A stretch of 53,913 nt of DNA from Bdellovibrionales bacterium GWB1_55_8 (lineage in GTDB: Bacteria > Bdellovibrionota > UBA1018). Shown in pieces: positions 35,815 through 48,870 of the stretch. The DNA lies in NCBI GenBank assembly GCA_001769835.1, contig MEPR01000079.1, positions 8,762 to 62,674 on the forward strand, in the 5' to 3' direction. The notes below the pieces were generated by a model. That model was not told the origin of the DNA, did no database searches, and saw only the letters and a list, made by a program, of their open reading frames with translations. How positions within the stretch are numbered: the stretch's first letter is position 1; each line of letters opens with the position of its first letter. Position numbers and translations under genes: made by a program.

Positions 35815-37911
35815 CTATGGACGTACTGGCTCATGGCCATCGGTTGAAGCCGATGGCAGACGAAGAGCGCCAAGGACCGCTCGAAAACGCTGGTGATTTC
35901 GTATTTTATTGAATACCGGATCATTTGCGACCAACACCATGTGGCTCGCGCGTTCCTCAATGCCATTTTCGAGAAAGGTAAGCGCCTGGTCAGTGTCGCC
36001 AAGCGCCGCGTGGAGGGTCGCGATATCGTAAGCGGAGACATAGCGCTTTTTCGATCGTTTCAGAAGGTCCGATAGAATCTGCCTGGCCTGCGCCGTCTCC
36101 CCGGATAAAGCATAGGCTTGCGCCAAAGCGGATAACATCATGGATTCCCCGCCTGAGAGGTCAGCTGCTCTTTGAAGCGATTGAATGGCGTCGGCTGATT
36201 TTCCCAGCTGTATATATGCTCGGCCGGCCCAATAATGCGGGAGCATGAACGCCGGATTCATCTCGATAGCAGACTGGCAATGGCGAACTGCGGCCTCGTA
36301 GTTCCCGGAAAAATAAGCCACGTTTGCCGCTGCGGATTTTACGATCAACGAGAGAGGTGCCAGGCGAAGAGCGGTCTGAATTTCCATGTCCGCCTCTGAG
36401 GGGCGTTTCATGTATGCAAGAAATTCCGCGTACCACTGGTGAGCGGTCGGGTCGTCAGGGTTGGAAGCAATGGCTCGGCGATAGCGGTCCTCGGCTCCGG
36501 ACCAATCGTGAGTGAAGTAGAGTTTTCCCTCGGCGAGCGACAGCAGCGCATCCGTCGAGCCCGGATTGAGTTCCAGGGCGCGGTCGGCATAGAGAAACAC
36601 TTCGTTCCATGTTGTCTGCGGAGAGGCCCCACCATAAAAAGACCGCAGGCTGGCAGCGCTGGCCATTGCGGCATAGGCGCTGCTGAAATGCGGGTCGATA
36701 GCTACGGCTTTCTTGAGGAGTTCCATGCCTTGCTTAAGGCCTTCCTCCGTCCTTTTCTCGATGAAATAGCGAGCCTTCAGATAAATCAGGTAGGCCTCAC
36801 TATTGGGCGTCGGATCCGGATCAGGTCGGTTTCCAATCGTGCTTGCAGGCGAACGGCCGCGAAACTGTCGGGAAACCTCGCCAGCGATTGTCTTTTGAAG
36901 ACCGAAGATGTCGTTGAGCTCGCCTTCGTAAACCTGAGACCAGCGGCTTTCCTGAGATGCAACATCGATGAATTGGACGCTGATGCGGACTCGTTGGCCC
37001 AGCGTTCTTACGCTCCCCTGGATCAGATATCCGACCTGCAAATCCTTGCCGATCTGCCCCGCAGTTCGATCACTGGATTTGTACTGCATCACGGCAGTGC
37101 GAGCCAGGACCCGTAGATCCCCGGAGCGCGAAAGACTGGAAATCAACTCTTCTGTCAGTCCGTTGGAAAGGTAGGCGTCGTCCTCGCCCTCGTGGCTGAT
37201 GTTTTCAAAAGGGAGTACGGCTATTCTGCTCTTTATGTCAGGAGAGTAGCGTTCGCGGGCCAGCTGGAACTGCCAAAGAACTCCGAGGATCAGGGCTGCA
37301 GTGGCAACGGCGATGCCGGCCTTCTTGAGAATGCGGCGGTTGAAAGCTCGACGATTGAACCAGACCCGGGGCGTAGCGGGTATGGCACTGTTTTCAAAAC
37401 GGATCTCATAGACCGCCACGGGATTTTTGATGTTCTTCAATTGCCTGGCGCCGCGATGTTCGACGGGTATGTCGAGTTTGTGATCCACTTGATAGAAAAC
37501 GGAGCCGCTCATACAGATTCCGCCAGGGCGCGCGACGTATTGAAGTCTGGCCGCGATGTTTACCCCATCTCCGTAGACATCGCCTCCTGACACGACCACA
37601 TCGCCGAGGTGAACTCCGACGCGAATCTGCATCCGCCGGTTCTTAGGTTGATCACGATTCCGCTCAGTAGTCGTTTTCTGAAGTTCTATGGCGAACTGAA
37701 CGGCGTCGAACGCTGTTTCAAAAACGAGCAGAAACGCGTCGCCGATCGTTTTTATCTCGGTTCCGAAGTGCTTTGCGACGATCGGTCGCGTAATGTCCCG
37801 GTGCTCCTGCAGGAGTTCCAGCGCGAGCTTTTCGTTCAGGTGGCTCAAGGCGCTATACCGCACGATATCGGTGAAAACGATTGCGGCGAGTTTTCGCTTT
37901 CCGTCTTTCAT
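35815..37911 (-). CDS. Class III adenylate cyclase with TolB-like and TPR domains
   Basis: The 698-aa protein has an N-terminal cyclase domain (about residues 8-180): metal-binding Asp15 in VFTDIVRYS, Lys54 and Asp58 in TEIKTIGDAFLLVF, and DVYGDGVNIAARL with Asp111, Asn118 and Arg122. The Lys54/Asp111 pair matches adenylate rather than guanylate cyclases. One membrane helix follows (GIAVATAALILGVLWQF, about 200-217). The periplasmic part has a TolB/FlgO-like domain (IAVLPFENISHEGEDDAYLS) and then about six TPR units (LEKRTEEGLKQGMELLKKA, SYAAMASAAS-like). All catalytic residues look intact, so it should make cAMP. Confidence 0.93.
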   Translation of the reverse strand: MKDGKRKLAAIVFTDIVRYSALSHLNEKLALELLQEHRDITRPIVAKHFGTEIKTIGDAFLLVFETAFDAVQFAIELQKTTTERNRDQPKNRRMQIRVGVHLGDVVVSGGDVYGDGVNIAARLQYVARPGGICMSGSVFYQVDHKLDIPVEHRGARQLKNIKNPVAVYEIRFENSAIPATPRVWFNRRAFNRRILKKAGIAVATAALILGVLWQFQLARERYSPDIKSRIAVLPFENISHEGEDDAYLSNGLTEELISSLSRSGDLRVLARTAVMQYKSSDRTAGQIGKDLQVGYLIQGSVRTLGQRVRISVQFIDVASQESRWSQVYEGELNDIFGLQKTIAGEVSRQFRGRSPASTIGNRPDPDPTPNSEAYLIYLKARYFIEKRTEEGLKQGMELLKKAVAIDPHFSSAYAAMASAASLRSFYGGASPQTTWNEVFLYADRALELNPGSTDALLSLAEGKLYFTHDWSGAEDRYRRAIASNPDDPTAHQWYAEFLAYMKRPSEADMEIQTALRLAPLSLIVKSAAANVAYFSGNYEAAVRHCQSAIEMNPAFMLPHYWAGRAYIQLGKSADAIQSLQRAADLSGGESMMLSALAQAYALSGETAQARQILSDLLKRSKKRYVSAYDIATLHAALGDTDQALTFLENGIEERASHMVLVANDPVFNKIRNHQRFRAVLGALRLPSASTDGHEPVRP

Positions 37912-40752: not shown

Positions 40753-41079
40753 GACGAGTTCCCCTTAATTTTTTAAAACCGCGGCGCATTGAGCAACACG
40801 TGTGCCGAAGATCGAGGAGCCGCTCAAGCACGCCGAAGTTTGTTATTTTTTTGATCCAACTTGCTGAACTTTCGAGATTCTTTGTTTCGCGAAAACGGAC
40901 TCCAGGAGAGGACATGCTTCAGCTATTTGGATCGAAAAGCTGAACCAACGCCTCAAGTGGAGCCGAAATGCGCCCTCTTGTTTTCACAATTCATCTCCAT
41001 TATTTGAAGGGCGCCCACGGATGACTCTATGCGTTATTTTGATTGTGAATTCAAGCCCAATCGACTAGGTTGCTGCGCT

Positions 41080-42513
41080 ATGGAGCGAGTGGGGTCGTTT
41101 ATTCTTGAGCGGGAACTCGGGCGCGGGGCTACCGCGCAGGTGTTTCTTGCTCATCGAGCAGAAGCGCCTTCTGAAAAGGTCGCTCTCAAGATATTCCATC
41201 CAGGCCTATGGGACCGCGAAGATCTTCGCAAACGCGCTCTCGCGGAGTTCAGGACCGCTTCCGTGCTGAATCATCCGAACATCGTCCGGGTCCTTGAGCC
41301 TTGTTGGGAAACAGACAAACCTGCGGTCGCACTCGAATACGTCGATGGTTCTTCGCTCGAGGAATTTCAGAAGCGCCTGCCATACATTCTTCCTGAAGTA
41401 GCCGTTCTGATCCTGATTGAGGTGCTTTCGGCTTTGGAGCATGCGCATGCGCAGGGCGTGATTCACCGCGATCTGAAGCCTGCCAATATTTTGATCAGCA
41501 AATCGGGCCGCGTTTTGGTGAGTGATTTCGGATTGGCAAAAATGGCCGATGTATCGCGGCTTACGCTTTCGGGCACGATTCTCGGGTCACCCGACTTCAT
41601 GTCTCCCGAACAGGCCAGAGGCGATGTCACGAGCCTGCGATCAGACCTGTTTTCCGCTGCTGCGATTCTCTACTTCCTGATAACCGGAACCAGGCCGTTT
41701 GCGCGTCACTCCCCGTTGGCGACGCTTGCGGCCGTGAACGAGGCAAATGCAGAGCCGGTTCAACGCAGAAACCCGAAGATCAGCGCAGCTCTTGCGCGTA
41801 CTCTGCATCGGGCTCTTCAGGCGGATCCGTTGTCACGTCCCGCCTCCGCGGCCGAAATGCGCGCCGAGTTTCAGGATTACTTGTCCGGCCTCGGGTTAGC
41901 TCGCGAAACATTCAACTTTGCTGATTGGGTAAGCAGTCCGACCGAGACCCTGATGGGCGCTATGAAAATTTGCGCGGAGTCCCTGAGTATCCGGTGCGAG
42001 GCGCTGATTCGCTCGGAACAGTCGGATACATTTCTGGAGACCCTGGCGCATCTCAGTCTTGTGGCGCCGGAAAGCGGGGCGCTTCCAAGGCTGATGAGTG
42101 AATTTGAAACCCGCCAGCGGCAACGCCGTCATAAAAAATTCCTGATCCCGGGAGTCGCTCTGGGTGTCATCTCCGCCTGTGCGGTTGTTCTGGGTGGCTG
42201 GTGGTTTGTTCATGACACCGGTCCGGGCGTGGACGCGATTCCGAGTACGCAATCCGCGTTGAAACCTGTTTCTCATCCGCCACGTATTGTGGCATCCAAG
42301 GCGAAAGCTGCCCCGGCGGTGGGATCCGTCCGTTTCGATGTTCCTGATGACATTCGCGTTTTCTGGAATGGTAAAAAGGTGAATCGGAAGAAGTCACTCA
42401 AGGATCAGAGTCTGGGAAAACATTGGATTCGCCTTGAAAAGAGCGGCAATCGGCCGATCGTTCGCGAGGTTCTTGTCCGGGCGGGCGAGCCCACGGTCAT
42501 TCGGGTAAGGTGA
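41080..42513 (+). CDS. Hanks-type Ser/Thr protein kinase
   Basis: The kinase domain occupies about residues 4-265 of 477: glycine loop GRGATAQVFLAH, Lys in VALKIFHP, catalytic loop HRDLKPANIL, Mg-binding DFGLAK, and activation loop LGSPDFMSPEQARG. A cytoplasmic linker is followed by one membrane helix (GVALGVISACAVVLGGWWF, about residues 360-378). The short periplasmic tail ends in a PEGA-like strand set (VRFDVPDDIRVFWNGKKVN). ATG 41080 is chosen because it sits directly before the kinase fold; ATG 41029 is in frame upstream. The sigma-54 activator starts 3 bases later, so the pair forms a kinase-FHA signalling unit. Confidence 0.93.
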   Translation: MERVGSFILERELGRGATAQVFLAHRAEAPSEKVALKIFHPGLWDREDLRKRALAEFRTASVLNHPNIVRVLEPCWETDKPAVALEYVDGSSLEEFQKRLPYILPEVAVLILIEVLSALEHAHAQGVIHRDLKPANILISKSGRVLVSDFGLAKMADVSRLTLSGTILGSPDFMSPEQARGDVTSLRSDLFSAAAILYFLITGTRPFARHSPLATLAAVNEANAEPVQRRNPKISAALARTLHRALQADPLSRPASAAEMRAEFQDYLSGLGLARETFNFADWVSSPTETLMGAMKICAESLSIRCEALIRSEQSDTFLETLAHLSLVAPESGALPRLMSEFETRQRQRRHKKFLIPGVALGVISACAVVLGGWWFVHDTGPGVDAIPSTQSALKPVSHPPRIVASKAKAAPAVGSVRFDVPDDIRVFWNGKKVNRKKSLKDQSLGKHWIRLEKSGNRPIVREVLVRAGEPTVIRVR

Positions 42514-42516
42514 CTC

Positions 42517-44349
42517 ATGGCGCAGCTGGTTCTTTCCGGAAGTCTGGCTCAAGGCACGCGCGAGCGTCAGTTTCTGATTAGAAAAAAAATGATGACCATT
42601 GGAACCGAAGCCACTCACGATGTGATGGTGTCGGCCAGTTCGCCAGGCGTTCTTTTTTCTCTCGTGATCCAGGACGGCTATTGCGAGGTTCTGCCTTCCA
42701 GGCGTTTGAGAATCAACGGAAACTCAACGATTGGGAGAAGCCGGCTCTCATCCTGCGATCGGATCGAATGGGACGGAGGGTCCGCCGTCTATCTCGACAA
42801 CGAAATCGCCGCGGCAGCGCAACACGTCGAGGGCGTCAGTCTGTCCCGTGCATTGGAAGTTCTTCAGAACCTCTCCGCCACGTTGCAAGGCACGGGAGCG
42901 CTTCAGGCGGGACTGCACCAGACCCTCGATGCATTGGTGGAGTTCGCGGGCGCTGAAGTGGGCTACCTTCTGGTGGAAAATGCGGAGGGTTCGGGGTGGG
43001 CTCTTTCCGCCTCTCGTGCGATCGGACAGGAAAGCGGGGATGTTCCTAGACCCAATCGAAAGGAACTCTTCAGTAATACGATCCTGAAAGAGGCGCTGGA
43101 GCGACGCGAACCGGTTTACGTGGAAAACATCATCGGACATCCCTGGGGAGACGCCGAAAGCGTGATTGCGGCCCGGATCTTCTCGGCAGCGTGTTTCCCG
43201 TTGTGCCTCGGAGAGCGAACGTTCGGCGCCGTATTCCTCTTCACAAGGTCTCCGGGGAAATCCATTCGCCGGGAGTCGCTCGGAGAACTCAGCCTTCTTG
43301 CAAGCCAGGCCGCGTTGATGCTGGCTTCGCAGGCCGAGCTTTCAAATGCCCGCCGCGAGAACGCGCGTTTGAAGTCGCTCGTGAACGCGGGAGACGGAGA
43401 GGTTGCGCTTTATCAGGACTCGCAAAGTCCGATGGTGGAGGTCGCGCGCAAGCTGGAGAAGCTCGCGCGCACGCCGCTTACGGTACTGATCCTCGGGGAA
43501 ACGGGTACGGGTAAAGAGGTTGTTGCCCGTGAACTTCATCGCAAGAGCGACCGCGCGAAGGGCCCTTTTGTCGCAGTCAATTGCGCGGCAATACCGGCGC
43601 CTCTTCTGGAGTCGACGCTTTTTGGATTTGAAAAGGGTGCGTTCACGGGGGCCATCCGCTCGCAGCCGGGTAAATTTCAGATCGCGAGTGGCGGAACTCT
43701 TTTCCTCGACGAAATCGGGGATCTCCCGCTTGAGCTTCAAGCCAAACTCCTGAGAGTTCTGCAGGAAAGAATGGTCGAACCGATCGGCGCGCGCGCTCCG
43801 CTCCCCGTGGATATTCGCGTGCTTTCCGCTACTCATCAGGAACTGGAAAGGGCCGTTCGCGAAGGCCGCTTTCGGCAGGATCTCTATTTCCGTCTGAACG
43901 GAGCCACACTGAAAATTCCGCCGCTTCGGGAGAGAAGGGAAGACATCCTTCCTCTTGCGGACCTGTTTTTGAAGGCAGCCGGTTGTGAGCTTCCGATCTC
44001 TCCAGACGCGCGAGAGGCGCTGACTCGTAACTCCTGGTCAGGAAACGTACGGGAGCTTCAACAGGTCATTACAAGGGCCGGATTTTTGGCTGAAGGCGCG
44101 GAAATCACCCTCAGGGATCTGGAGCTCGATTCCCGGGAAGTTCAGTCAGCGGGTGATTCAGAGCACTGGAGCAGCCTTGAGGATGCGCAAACGGCATTTA
44201 CGAGAGACTTTGTCAGGCGCGCTCTGGAGCGAAATGGGGGAAGCCGATCGCTGGCCGCGGCATCGCTTGGAGTTTCTGAACGCACTCTTTATCGAATTCT
44301 CGCCTCCGAAGCCGACCCGAAAACCGACTCCAAGGCTGACCCGACATGA
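42517..44349 (+). CDS. FHA-GAF sigma-54-dependent transcriptional activator
   Basis: The 610-aa protein has an N-terminal FHA-like domain (about residues 24-95, [12 protein letters not shown] to [13 protein letters not shown]) and a GAF domain (about 110-260, [20 protein letters not shown] and [16 protein letters not shown]). The AAA+ domain has Walker [15 protein letters not shown] and [20 protein letters not shown] Fis-type helix-turn-helix ends it ([20 protein letters not shown]). The start follows the kinase stop with a 3-base gap. A near-perfect -24/-12 promoter 97 bases after its stop is the obvious candidate target. It should be controlled by phosphorylation from the adjacent kinase through the FHA domain. 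Confidence 0.94.
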
Positions 44350-46048: not shown

Positions 46049-46072
46049 GCAACTCACGGTCCTTCTTCGTTT

Positions 46073-46110
46073 TGCGGCGATCTTCCAGCTTGGGGGATCG
46101 CCGCAGTTTT
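46073..46110 (+). terminator. Rho-independent terminator
   Basis: A perfect 10-bp stem, TGCGGCGATC with its complement GATCGCCGCA (46073-46082 and 46096-46105), with a 13-base loop, is followed by GTTTTAT. It ends the kinase/activator/outer-membrane/lipoprotein unit. Confidence 0.85.
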
Positions 46111-46194: not shown

Positions 46195-48870
46195 ATGAAC
46201 TCCCCACTGCGTTCGATGTCGCCTCGTTTTTTTCGTGGTTCTCTCACCGCCCTGCTGCTGATCTCCCTCGCAGGTGCCACCGGCTGTAAAAAGCCGCCAA
46301 CGACATTTAACGCTGTCGAGGGCACTGCCACGATCGAGGTGAAGCTTCAGGCCAAAGACAAGGCTGACTCGACCGAGCTGAAGGACCGTGAAGGTGTGCT
46401 TCGGTTGAAGTATGAACGCGCGGGCGGCACGGTTCTCGATCAGCTTTCGACGGATGTTTCATTCACCGGATCAGCCAAAGTTCCGTTGCTTGCCAAGCCT
46501 GTTCTTAAGAAAAAGGATCCTTCTGAGATTCCAACCTTCGTGCTGGCCGGCATCAGTATCCTCCCGGTCGAGGCTCTGGGTTCGGAAACGCCCGTGAAGT
46601 CTTTTGCTGATTTCGCGGGAACGGCGCTCTCTGAATTGAAACTCAAGGCGGAACGAGGCGAGGTGAAGATTCTTCTCACGTTCGTGGGCGCGGACACGCA
46701 ACCGGCCGTTGAGGTTGTCAAAACGGATCGGCCCGTTTACGACCGGGATCCAGCTACCCATTACATCTCGATCAAAAGCGTCTTCGGGAGCCTGAACGCG
46801 GTTCTTGAAGCGACTGATATCCAAGCCACGCTTGCTCAACTCAGGGCTATTGCATCTGCAACATATGAATATCACCGGGAGCTCCTGGAAGTCGCGAGGC
46901 AAGGGAAGAAAGTGGATCTGGAGCACACGATCCTGCTTCTTGATGCGGCGTATTTCACGGTTGCGGACGCCGAAGGCATGAAAGCCCGGATCGCCGCTTT
47001 ATATAAAAGATTGGAGAAAACTTCCGATTCGCAGTTGCGCCGGGATCTCCAGGCCGAGGTCAACCGTGTCGAGAGGAACTATTCGCTTGCGCGTGAGTTC
47101 GGTCAGTTCACCAACCAGATCGTCGCGACGGTGGTCAAGAAATTGTCCGACTTCACGCTCGAGAACGCCACGATTTTAAGTGAACGTCTCTTCGCGGGCG
47201 ATGGCACCAATGCTCTGTTCGACGAAGTGCATGGCAAGTTCAGCCCGTTCAGCGCTGACCAAAAAACTTTCTGGATGGATCGCGCGGTTCTGAAAGGCGC
47301 CTTTGCCAGTGCAGGAAAGTTCGCGCTCGATTATTTCAAGCAGGACACTAGCAAGGATTTTGAAAGTCTGAAGGCGCTGGTGCTGAAATTGAAAGGAACC
47401 GATGGAGCGGATGTCCTGATCGTTGGCGCTCTTCCTGAATTCAGTGAGCTGAGTTTTGAGCAGGCGAAATTTCTGGTCTCCCAAAGCAATCAGAAGGCCG
47501 TTGAGATCGCACTGGATGTGCTGAAGAAGGTGACTGCGATCACCGCGGCGCAGCTGGTATCGGTCGCCGATCTGTTTCACTCCTCTTCTTCAGCCCGCGA
47601 TCAGATCCTTCTTGCTGGTTTGCCGAAGATAAAAGCTTTGAACGTGAACGAGACCAAGGCGATTGTTTCGGCTTCCTATCAGAAGGGAGTGGAAATAGCG
47701 CTCGCGTGCTTCAAAAAGGTGAGTTCACTCAAGGGTGAGGACGTCGCTTCTGTTTGCGAGCTCTTCAATTCGAGTTCATCTGCTCGTGACAGTATTCTTA
47801 TCGGGGCAATTCCAAGCCTGGCAGTGGTCACGCCCGCAGGCATTCACGCGATGGTTGGTGCCAGTTATCAGCGCGGGACCGAAATCGCAGGGATGCTCTT
47901 TCCGAAAACTACGAGTTTGACTGGGGAGGAAGTGGCAAAAATAGCGGAGCTTTATAATTCGTCAAGTTCGGCACGCGATACCATTATCCTCACGGCTCTT
48001 CCGCATCTGAAGCCCGTCACGTTCAGTGGCGTAAAGGCGATGGTGCAGCAGAGTTACCAGAAGGGGGTTGAGCTGTTTAAAACCGCGTTGCCTAAACTCG
48101 GCTCCATCAAAGCAGCGCAAGCCCTCGAAGTGGTGAGTCTCTACAACACGAGTTCATCTGCCCGCGATCAGATCCTTACAGCATCGCTCGATTTCATCGG
48201 GATCGTTCCGGTTTCCGAGATCGTGCAGCTGATGCAGGCGAGTTATCAGTCTCATGAAACCCTTGGGAAGACCCTGATGGGACGCCTGGAAGTTCTGACG
48301 TCAAAGGAGCTTGCGAGCATCGTGAGCATTTATCATTCGAGCTCAACCGTTCGAGATCGCCTGCTGCTGGCCGGCCTGCCAAAGATCGTGCAGCTCTCGG
48401 CAGCCGAGACGATCCTGTTGATTCGTGAGGCTTATCAGGAGCATCTGAAAATAGCACTTTTCGCGTTGGACCGGATTCCAGGCATGACGGCGAATGACGT
48501 GTTCTTGATCGCGGACGTTTATCACAGCAGCTCCACTGTCCGTGACACGATCGTGACTGAAGGCCTGGCGCGGCTGAAAAGTGTCAAAACAGCGGAGTTG
48601 ATCAAGCTGGTGCACGCGGCTTACCAGAAACATCTGGAGATCACGCTGGCCGGATTGGAGAGGACCTCTGACTTGAGCGTGAACAACGCGATTCAGATCG
48701 TTTCGATCTATCACTCGAGTTCTTCGGCTCGCGATAAGATACTGCTGAAAGCCATCGATTTCGTGACAGATCTCGATGAAGAGAATCTGATCCGCCTGGC
48801 CGATCAGGCTTATGCGGATCGAAAAGGGGTTCTGAAGAAAGGCCTGGAGCGGCTTCGGAATCAGCGTTGA
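46195..48870 (+). CDS. Lipoprotein with seven 63-residue repeats (probable alpha-solenoid)
   Basis: The 891-aa protein has a signal ending LAGATGC (Cys31). A beta-rich N-domain of about 170 residues is followed by helical stretches (about 190-400) and a large tandem array. The array marker H/N-S/T-SS-S/T-A/V-RD-x-I-L recurs seven times at an exact 63-residue (189-base) spacing. The first is residue 462 and the last residue 840. Each unit continues with a helix, a loop, an A/S-YQ-helix and a return helix. An earlier degenerate unit (TDGADVLIVGALPEF) may be unit zero. I know no family with this marker. A surface or periplasmic scaffold is a reasonable inference. Its last 10 bases overlap rnhA convergently. 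Confidence 0.85.
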   Translation: MNSPLRSMSPRFFRGSLTALLLISLAGATGCKKPPTTFNAVEGTATIEVKLQAKDKADSTELKDREGVLRLKYERAGGTVLDQLSTDVSFTGSAKVPLLAKPVLKKKDPSEIPTFVLAGISILPVEALGSETPVKSFADFAGTALSELKLKAERGEVKILLTFVGADTQPAVEVVKTDRPVYDRDPATHYISIKSVFGSLNAVLEATDIQATLAQLRAIASATYEYHRELLEVARQGKKVDLEHTILLLDAAYFTVADAEGMKARIAALYKRLEKTSDSQLRRDLQAEVNRVERNYSLAREFGQFTNQIVATVVKKLSDFTLENATILSERLFAGDGTNALFDEVHGKFSPFSADQKTFWMDRAVLKGAFASAGKFALDYFKQDTSKDFESLKALVLKLKGTDGADVLIVGALPEFSELSFEQAKFLVSQSNQKAVEIALDVLKKVTAITAAQLVSVADLFHSSSSARDQILLAGLPKIKALNVNETKAIVSASYQKGVEIALACFKKVSSLKGEDVASVCELFNSSSSARDSILIGAIPSLAVVTPAGIHAMVGASYQRGTEIAGMLFPKTTSLTGEEVAKIAELYNSSSSARDTIILTALPHLKPVTFSGVKAMVQQSYQKGVELFKTALPKLGSIKAAQALEVVSLYNTSSSARDQILTASLDFIGIVPVSEIVQLMQASYQSHETLGKTLMGRLEVLTSKELASIVSIYHSSSTVRDRLLLAGLPKIVQLSAAETILLIREAYQEHLKIALFALDRIPGMTANDVFLIADVYHSSSTVRDTIVTEGLARLKSVKTAELIKLVHAAYQKHLEITLAGLERTSDLSVNNAIQIVSIYHSSSSARDKILLKAIDFVTDLDEENLIRLADQAYADRKGVLKKGLERLRNQR
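47578..48771 (+). repeat. Seven in-frame 189-bp tandem units
   Basis: The codons for the H/N-SSS-RD marker begin at 47578, 47767, 47956, 48145, 48334, 48523 and 48712. Every interval is exactly 189 bases with no indel. The DNA units are diverged, while the protein pattern is kept, so these are old, selected repeats rather than recent duplications. Confidence 0.9.

Follow-up and report, generated by a model that had tools for sequence, protein, structure and literature searches.

P0001, an 891-residue protein encoded in a 53,913-nucleotide stretch of DNA from Bdellovibrionales bacterium GWB1_55_8 (contig MEPR01000079.1; the whole stretch analysed is termed the window), is probably a lipoprotein of the envelope, with its 700 C-terminal residues predicted to form one long alpha-solenoid of ~31-residue helical hairpins. 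The SSSARD marker that recurs along this array would be the form taken in the window's lineage by the turn, and by the first part of the second helix, of one of two alternating hairpins (hairpin B); its [KR]-D pair most likely stabilises this helix start as well as unit-to-unit packing. Internal duplication would have enlarged the array between two conserved ends, the first unit and a C-terminal cap unit. To judge solely from its fold class, the solenoid most likely acts as a scaffold on which one or more envelope proteins dock or are assembled, its lipid holding it at a membrane. As a whole explanation, an envelope-anchored hairpin-solenoid docking scaffold with a structural marker is one that we regard as moderately probable.

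Repeat architecture of P0001

The features of the gene are given below in window coordinates.

46195 to 48870, + strand: coding sequence of the solenoid protein P0001 (891 aa), an open frame with homologues in other genomes
46195 to 46287, + strand: signal peptide whose probable lipobox ends with Cys31 (LAGATG-C), read from the sequence and weak, position -3 being Ala
46306 to 46734, + strand: N-terminal domain, probably beta-rich (residues 38-180), conserved in several relatives
46762 to 47349, + strand: N-terminal helical region ahead of the regular units (residues 190-385), AlphaFold2 pLDDT mostly ~90, conserved in the family
47350 to 47538, + strand: unit 0 (residues 386-448) with decayed marker GADV, the eighth family-profile match (unit cut P0001_386), two hairpins in the model
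47539 to 48861, + strand: units 1-7 (residues 449-889), 63 residues (189 bases) apiece, from the period, base comparison and four helices per unit in the model
47578 to 47601, + strand: first marker, HSSSSARD (residues 462-469), from the sequence
47767, 47956, 48145, 48334, 48523 and 48712-48735, + strand: later markers at 189-base steps, from the sequence

An earlier reading of the sequence alone had reported an open frame with seven markers at an exact 63-residue (189-base) step and divergent DNA between them, and a recount confirmed all of this, including the coordinates. The marker [HN][ST]SS[ST][AV]RD occurs seven times in the frame at 46195-48870, with its SS-x-[AV]-RD core at residues 464, 527, 590, 653, 716, 779 and 842, a step of 63 throughout. 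The repeat structure is well supported by self-comparison of the protein, in which identity reached 37% at lag 63 and 31% at lags 126 and 189 and was at most 15% at every lag other than multiples of 63. Pairwise, the units have 40-55% of bases and 21-52% of residues in common, with identical residues mostly encoded by different codons, and because of this base identity and codon divergence sequence comparison dismisses both recent duplication and faulty assembly as the source of the repeat, and its units are old. No copy was found elsewhere in the window's genome outside the P0001 gene.

The original count of seven units stands for those that carry the marker, but the family profile and unit cut place an eighth, marker-decayed unit (residues 386-448) in front of them, and each unit resolves into two hairpins. 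Lags 30 and 33 were also prominent in the self-comparison, and a 30/33 shift within the unit scored above all 2000 of 2000 column shuffles that preserved the hydrophobic pattern; for these reasons the 63-residue unit is, as far as its sequence tells, two homologous helical hairpins of 33 + 30 residues in the order B then A. Hairpin B carries the marker, and the turn of hairpin A reads SYQ or AYQ in most P0001 units.

At the N-terminus, a hydrophobic stretch is followed by A-T-G-C31 (by eye), in which Ala at -3 departs from the lipobox [LVI][ASTVI][GAS]C, making the P0001 lipobox plausible though non-canonical. Canonical lipoboxes are present in the relatives at loci L071 (LSAC) and L072 (LISC), and L018 and L073 at least have a signal sequence with no obvious lipobox. 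From the signal peptide and Cys31 we infer that P0001 is likely lipid-anchored at the envelope, a grading that retains the anchor first proposed while allowing for its non-canonical lipobox. A model of the N-terminal domain that follows (pLDDT 33) was too poor to name a fold or to search with. In L073 (5338-8541, + strand), the N-terminal part resembles pentapeptide repeats by eye in place of the beta-rich domain, with the same solenoid after it.

Predicted structure

The AlphaFold2 model, built from a five-sequence alignment and starting after residue 179, is an all-helical solenoid with pLDDT ~90 across residues 190-890, and this confident prediction backs the folded solenoid that had been proposed from the regular unit length. 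Its helical array starts at about residue 193, well ahead of the marked units, and contains four helices per 63-residue unit; in each of the seven units that bear the marker, the second Ser of SSxxRD is where the second helix of hairpin B begins. By structural class the modelled P0001 is an alpha-solenoid, with repeated helical hairpins stacked in one elongated array. A Foldseek search with the full model, which the sequence-only reading had suggested alongside structure prediction, returned only generic alpha-solenoids (E <0.001, TM-scores <=0.28), and the predicted structure does have a repeated fold.

A patchy family with arrays of differing period

Homologues, sought across the phylum as had first been suggested, were recovered in 13 of the 369 genomes examined, the window's own counted, defining a well-supported family of patchy distribution. 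Searching genome contigs with a family alignment identified four loci, and the P0001 sequence alone had no match in the same contigs. One further homologue comes from a Planctomycetota-labelled contig; among 149 genomes of the surrounding group there were two matches, one being that genome itself and the other weak. Assemblies bearing the labels Oligoflexia, Deltaproteobacteria and Bdellovibrionales account for the remaining named loci. In L020, L021 and L022 the homologue is shorter, at about 615 aa. Plasmids yielded no solenoid homologue, and a candidate in one genome (L009 in G050) was dropped on reading, its N-terminal signal region resembling a different lipoprotein.

The strongest period is 63 in the window protein, 62 in L017, L018, L071, L072 and L074, and 61 in L019, L028 and L073, with L023 peaking at 122 (twice 61) and a weak period of 64 in L020-L022. 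This difference between relatives is located in the marker loop, before [KR]-D. Among 71 units, the nearest unit lay within the same protein for 37 (shuffled labels: mean 6.7, maximum 18), a well-supported grouping of inner units by protein, and for most proteins the last unit was closest to its counterpart in another protein. In a tree of 54 units, built on few columns and with many open forks, the first units of P0001, L017, L018 and L071 clustered, as did the last units of six proteins. Because inner units tend to group by protein and end units are common to proteins, the sequences suggest that arrays probably grew by lineage-specific internal duplication between shared end units. Strict selection on unit length, as initially proposed, accords with the exact 63 of P0001 but less well with periods of 61, 62, 63 and 64 among relatives; since inner units group within each protein, descent by internal duplication offers an explanation for uniform unit length within one protein, beside selection on length.

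The marker residues were conserved unequally when mapped across the family. The marker site has K or R in 71 of 72 rows and then D in 67 of 74, and the Ser run is not retained in the unit alignment, with relatives reading YNSKD, YSAKD or WSDKD at this site. In L072 the two hairpin turns are YNSKD and YDSKS, making their kinship plain. Across the family the marker takes the form [SNG]-x-[KR]-D, which is similar to an N-capping box (S-x-x-D); in the longer loop of the window protein the model starts the helix slightly earlier, so the register is approximate. We infer a structural role for the marker on this basis, most simply as a helix-start element. The rival interpretation, close to the Ser/Arg/Asp contact face that was first suggested, is that R/K-D forms a ladder, one rung per 63 residues, facing an acidic polymer or the acidic strip of a partner, and that the marker is kept for binding. 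Near-invariance of K/R with exchange between the two would suit such an electrostatic contact, and to this extent the first suggestion survives in the [KR]-D pair; however, the Ser run is lost in relatives, loop length differs between lineages, and in the model the marker coincides with the beginning of a helix, a position that often takes polar and acidic residues on structural grounds and where a structural role fits at least equally well. We consider a contact face unlikely.

Comparison with named families

Searches of Pfam, NCBIfam and PHROGs returned no convincing family for P0001 or its relatives, and none of the solved natural protein families in the PDB matched the P0001 unit, supporting, together with the structure searches made, the initial impression that no known repeat family was involved. 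The searches made place the solenoid family in no named repeat family. The closest Pfam candidates were rejected: DUF1207 (E 6e-4, 19.3 bits against a cut-off of 22) was a scattered helical match, and DUF1652 (23.4 bits, cut-off 23) covered ~27 residues of an artificial three-unit consensus, with no real member matching. Weak NCBIfam matches were also scattered and helical, and far from or under cut-offs.

Could P0001 instead be a highly diverged TPR or Sel1 protein, or belong to another named family of right-handed repeats? Its best Foldseek matches include TPR, HAT and PPR proteins, and the helical hairpins are of similar size. Against this, TPR, Sel1, HEAT and PPR HMMs gave no match at E up to 5, the hairpins span 30-33 rather than 34-36 residues, TM-scores did not exceed the 0.28 given above, and TPR and Sel1 consensus sequences (entered by hand) showed no excess fit in a gapless test. 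Such membership is quite unlikely.

DUF4476 (PF14771) was also considered and rejected. At a cut-off of 22.5 bits its HMM left P0001 unmatched at E up to 5 and eight family members unmatched at E up to 1, and profile-profile comparison gave an hhalign probability of at most 0.4% (the DUF4476 alignment being thin, Neff 2.9), against 98.4% for a positive control of two parts of the solenoid family. By eye the two groups looked alike, both being secreted bacterial proteins and both having turns of the form F-x-[FS]-D-x-[DE]-[KR] ~31-33 residues apart; from its sequence, DUF4476 may itself be a helical-repeat fold. One DUF4476 gene is present in the window's genome, and the DUF4476 protein at L087 (460-1785, + strand) has several F-x-F-D-S-D-K-like turns ~31 residues apart (by eye).

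Gene neighbourhood and a cytochrome link in two relatives

Upstream of the solenoid gene lie a Ser/Thr kinase and a GAF/sigma-54 activator, then an outer-membrane-protein-like gene (likeness by eye, with no family name), then a short lipoprotein-like gene. At its 3' end, the solenoid gene overlaps a convergent RNase H gene by ten bases. One feature separates it from the genes upstream.

46072 to 46106, + strand: terminator-like hairpin of 16 pairs followed by TTTTATG, between the upstream gene and the solenoid gene, from a terminator scan

Nine terminator-like sites were detected, where shuffles predicted 2.7, and this one was the longest. A conserved operon that would include the upstream outer-membrane-protein-like and lipoprotein genes was rejected, as no such arrangement was found near relatives and the terminator-like hairpin intervenes. 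Most relatives had no conserved neighbour gene; among the fifteen window neighbours compared, matches near relatives were limited to the kinase and the sigma-54 regulator, both common gene kinds. The kinase gene, with the GAF/sigma-54 activator gene directly after it, occupies 41029-44349 (+ strand), and sigma-54 activator matches fall within ~5 kb of the homologues in L071 and L028, possibly by chance. Elsewhere in the window are an adenylate/guanylate cyclase domain fused to TPR repeats (35815-37911, - strand) and an open frame with eight CXXCH motifs (43-1530, + strand; 496 aa stop to stop), likely a multiheme cytochrome. In L020, L021 and L022, from three genomes of one genus, the homologue has the same neighbours, which by eye are an ABC transporter, a LolA-like protein, a convergent outer-membrane-protein-like gene and RND/TolC-like genes.

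In two genomes from different families (G002 and G215), the genes around the homologue encode two small tetraheme cytochromes, an NHL propeller and a cytochrome with ten CXXCH motifs.

L018, 3593 to 11177, and L071, 690 to 7971: OmcE-like tetraheme cytochromes, NHL propeller and ten-CXXCH cytochrome flanking the homologue

The tetraheme protein had two PDB sequence matches only, both cytochromes: 9yuq_N (E 2e-18) and 7tfs_A (E 5e-13), the latter from the OmcE nanowire entry. OmcE is a tetraheme polymer (PMC12307469). This location and these matches raise the prospect that the solenoid helps to assemble or export extracellular cytochrome filaments (OmcE-like nanowires) or a comparable exported polymer, but of the 13 carrier genomes tested just two, the window's own not being one of them, gave an OmcE-like gene, and the cluster-type proteins L018 and L071 lack the N-terminal domain of the window protein, making this very unlikely. 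P0001 was likewise rejected as a component of an OmcE-type nanowire cluster, the window's genome having no OmcE-like gene.

Significance and relation to known solenoids

With P0001, the envelope proteins of a bacterial group that has been little studied would gain a helical-repeat family that seems not to have been described before and whose hairpin is unusually short; the family also illustrates array growth between conserved end units. Two relatives tie it by location to cytochrome-nanowire genes, offering a place to seek assembly factors.

The nearest sequence matches in the PDB are man-made. The unit profile ranked the designed toroids dTor_12x31L (E 4e-12) and dTor_9x31L (E 5e-10) highest, with E-values that sum 9-12 near-identical copies and so overstate significance, a single copy giving E of about 40-60. 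When aligned without gaps, 20 dTor repeat residues (ISVEELLKLAKAAYYSGTTV) fitted hairpin A at 24.5 bits, compared with 9.8 +/- 3.4 bits for pattern-keeping shuffles (maximum 23.2 of 300), in a post-selection test for which the toroid had already been chosen as best of the PDB. These toroids (PDB 5byo, 4yxz, 4yxy) have a 31-residue helix-turn-helix repeat like the natural hairpins, whereas the natural unit consists of two different hairpins. According to a review (PMC7734218), left-handed closed toroids were picked for design since the architecture was previously unreported. A further reading is that the solenoid family is the natural occurrence of an alpha-solenoid architecture so far obtained by design, left-handed and highly curved with 30-31-residue hairpins, and that in the bacterial envelope it encircles or winds around exported proteins, cytochrome filaments for example; this strikes us as highly doubtful. 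If its superhelix is left-handed, the family would be the natural counterpart of the designed toroids. As left-handed alpha-toroids of human design whose likeness is by sequence only, the dTor proteins are analogues at best, and probably stand in that relation to the solenoid family. The alpha-solenoids of TPR, HAT, PPR and Sel1 proteins likewise stack helical hairpins in an extended superhelix, as the model predicts for P0001, but differ from the solenoid family in their longer hairpin, their lack of a sequence-model match and their very low global TM-scores.
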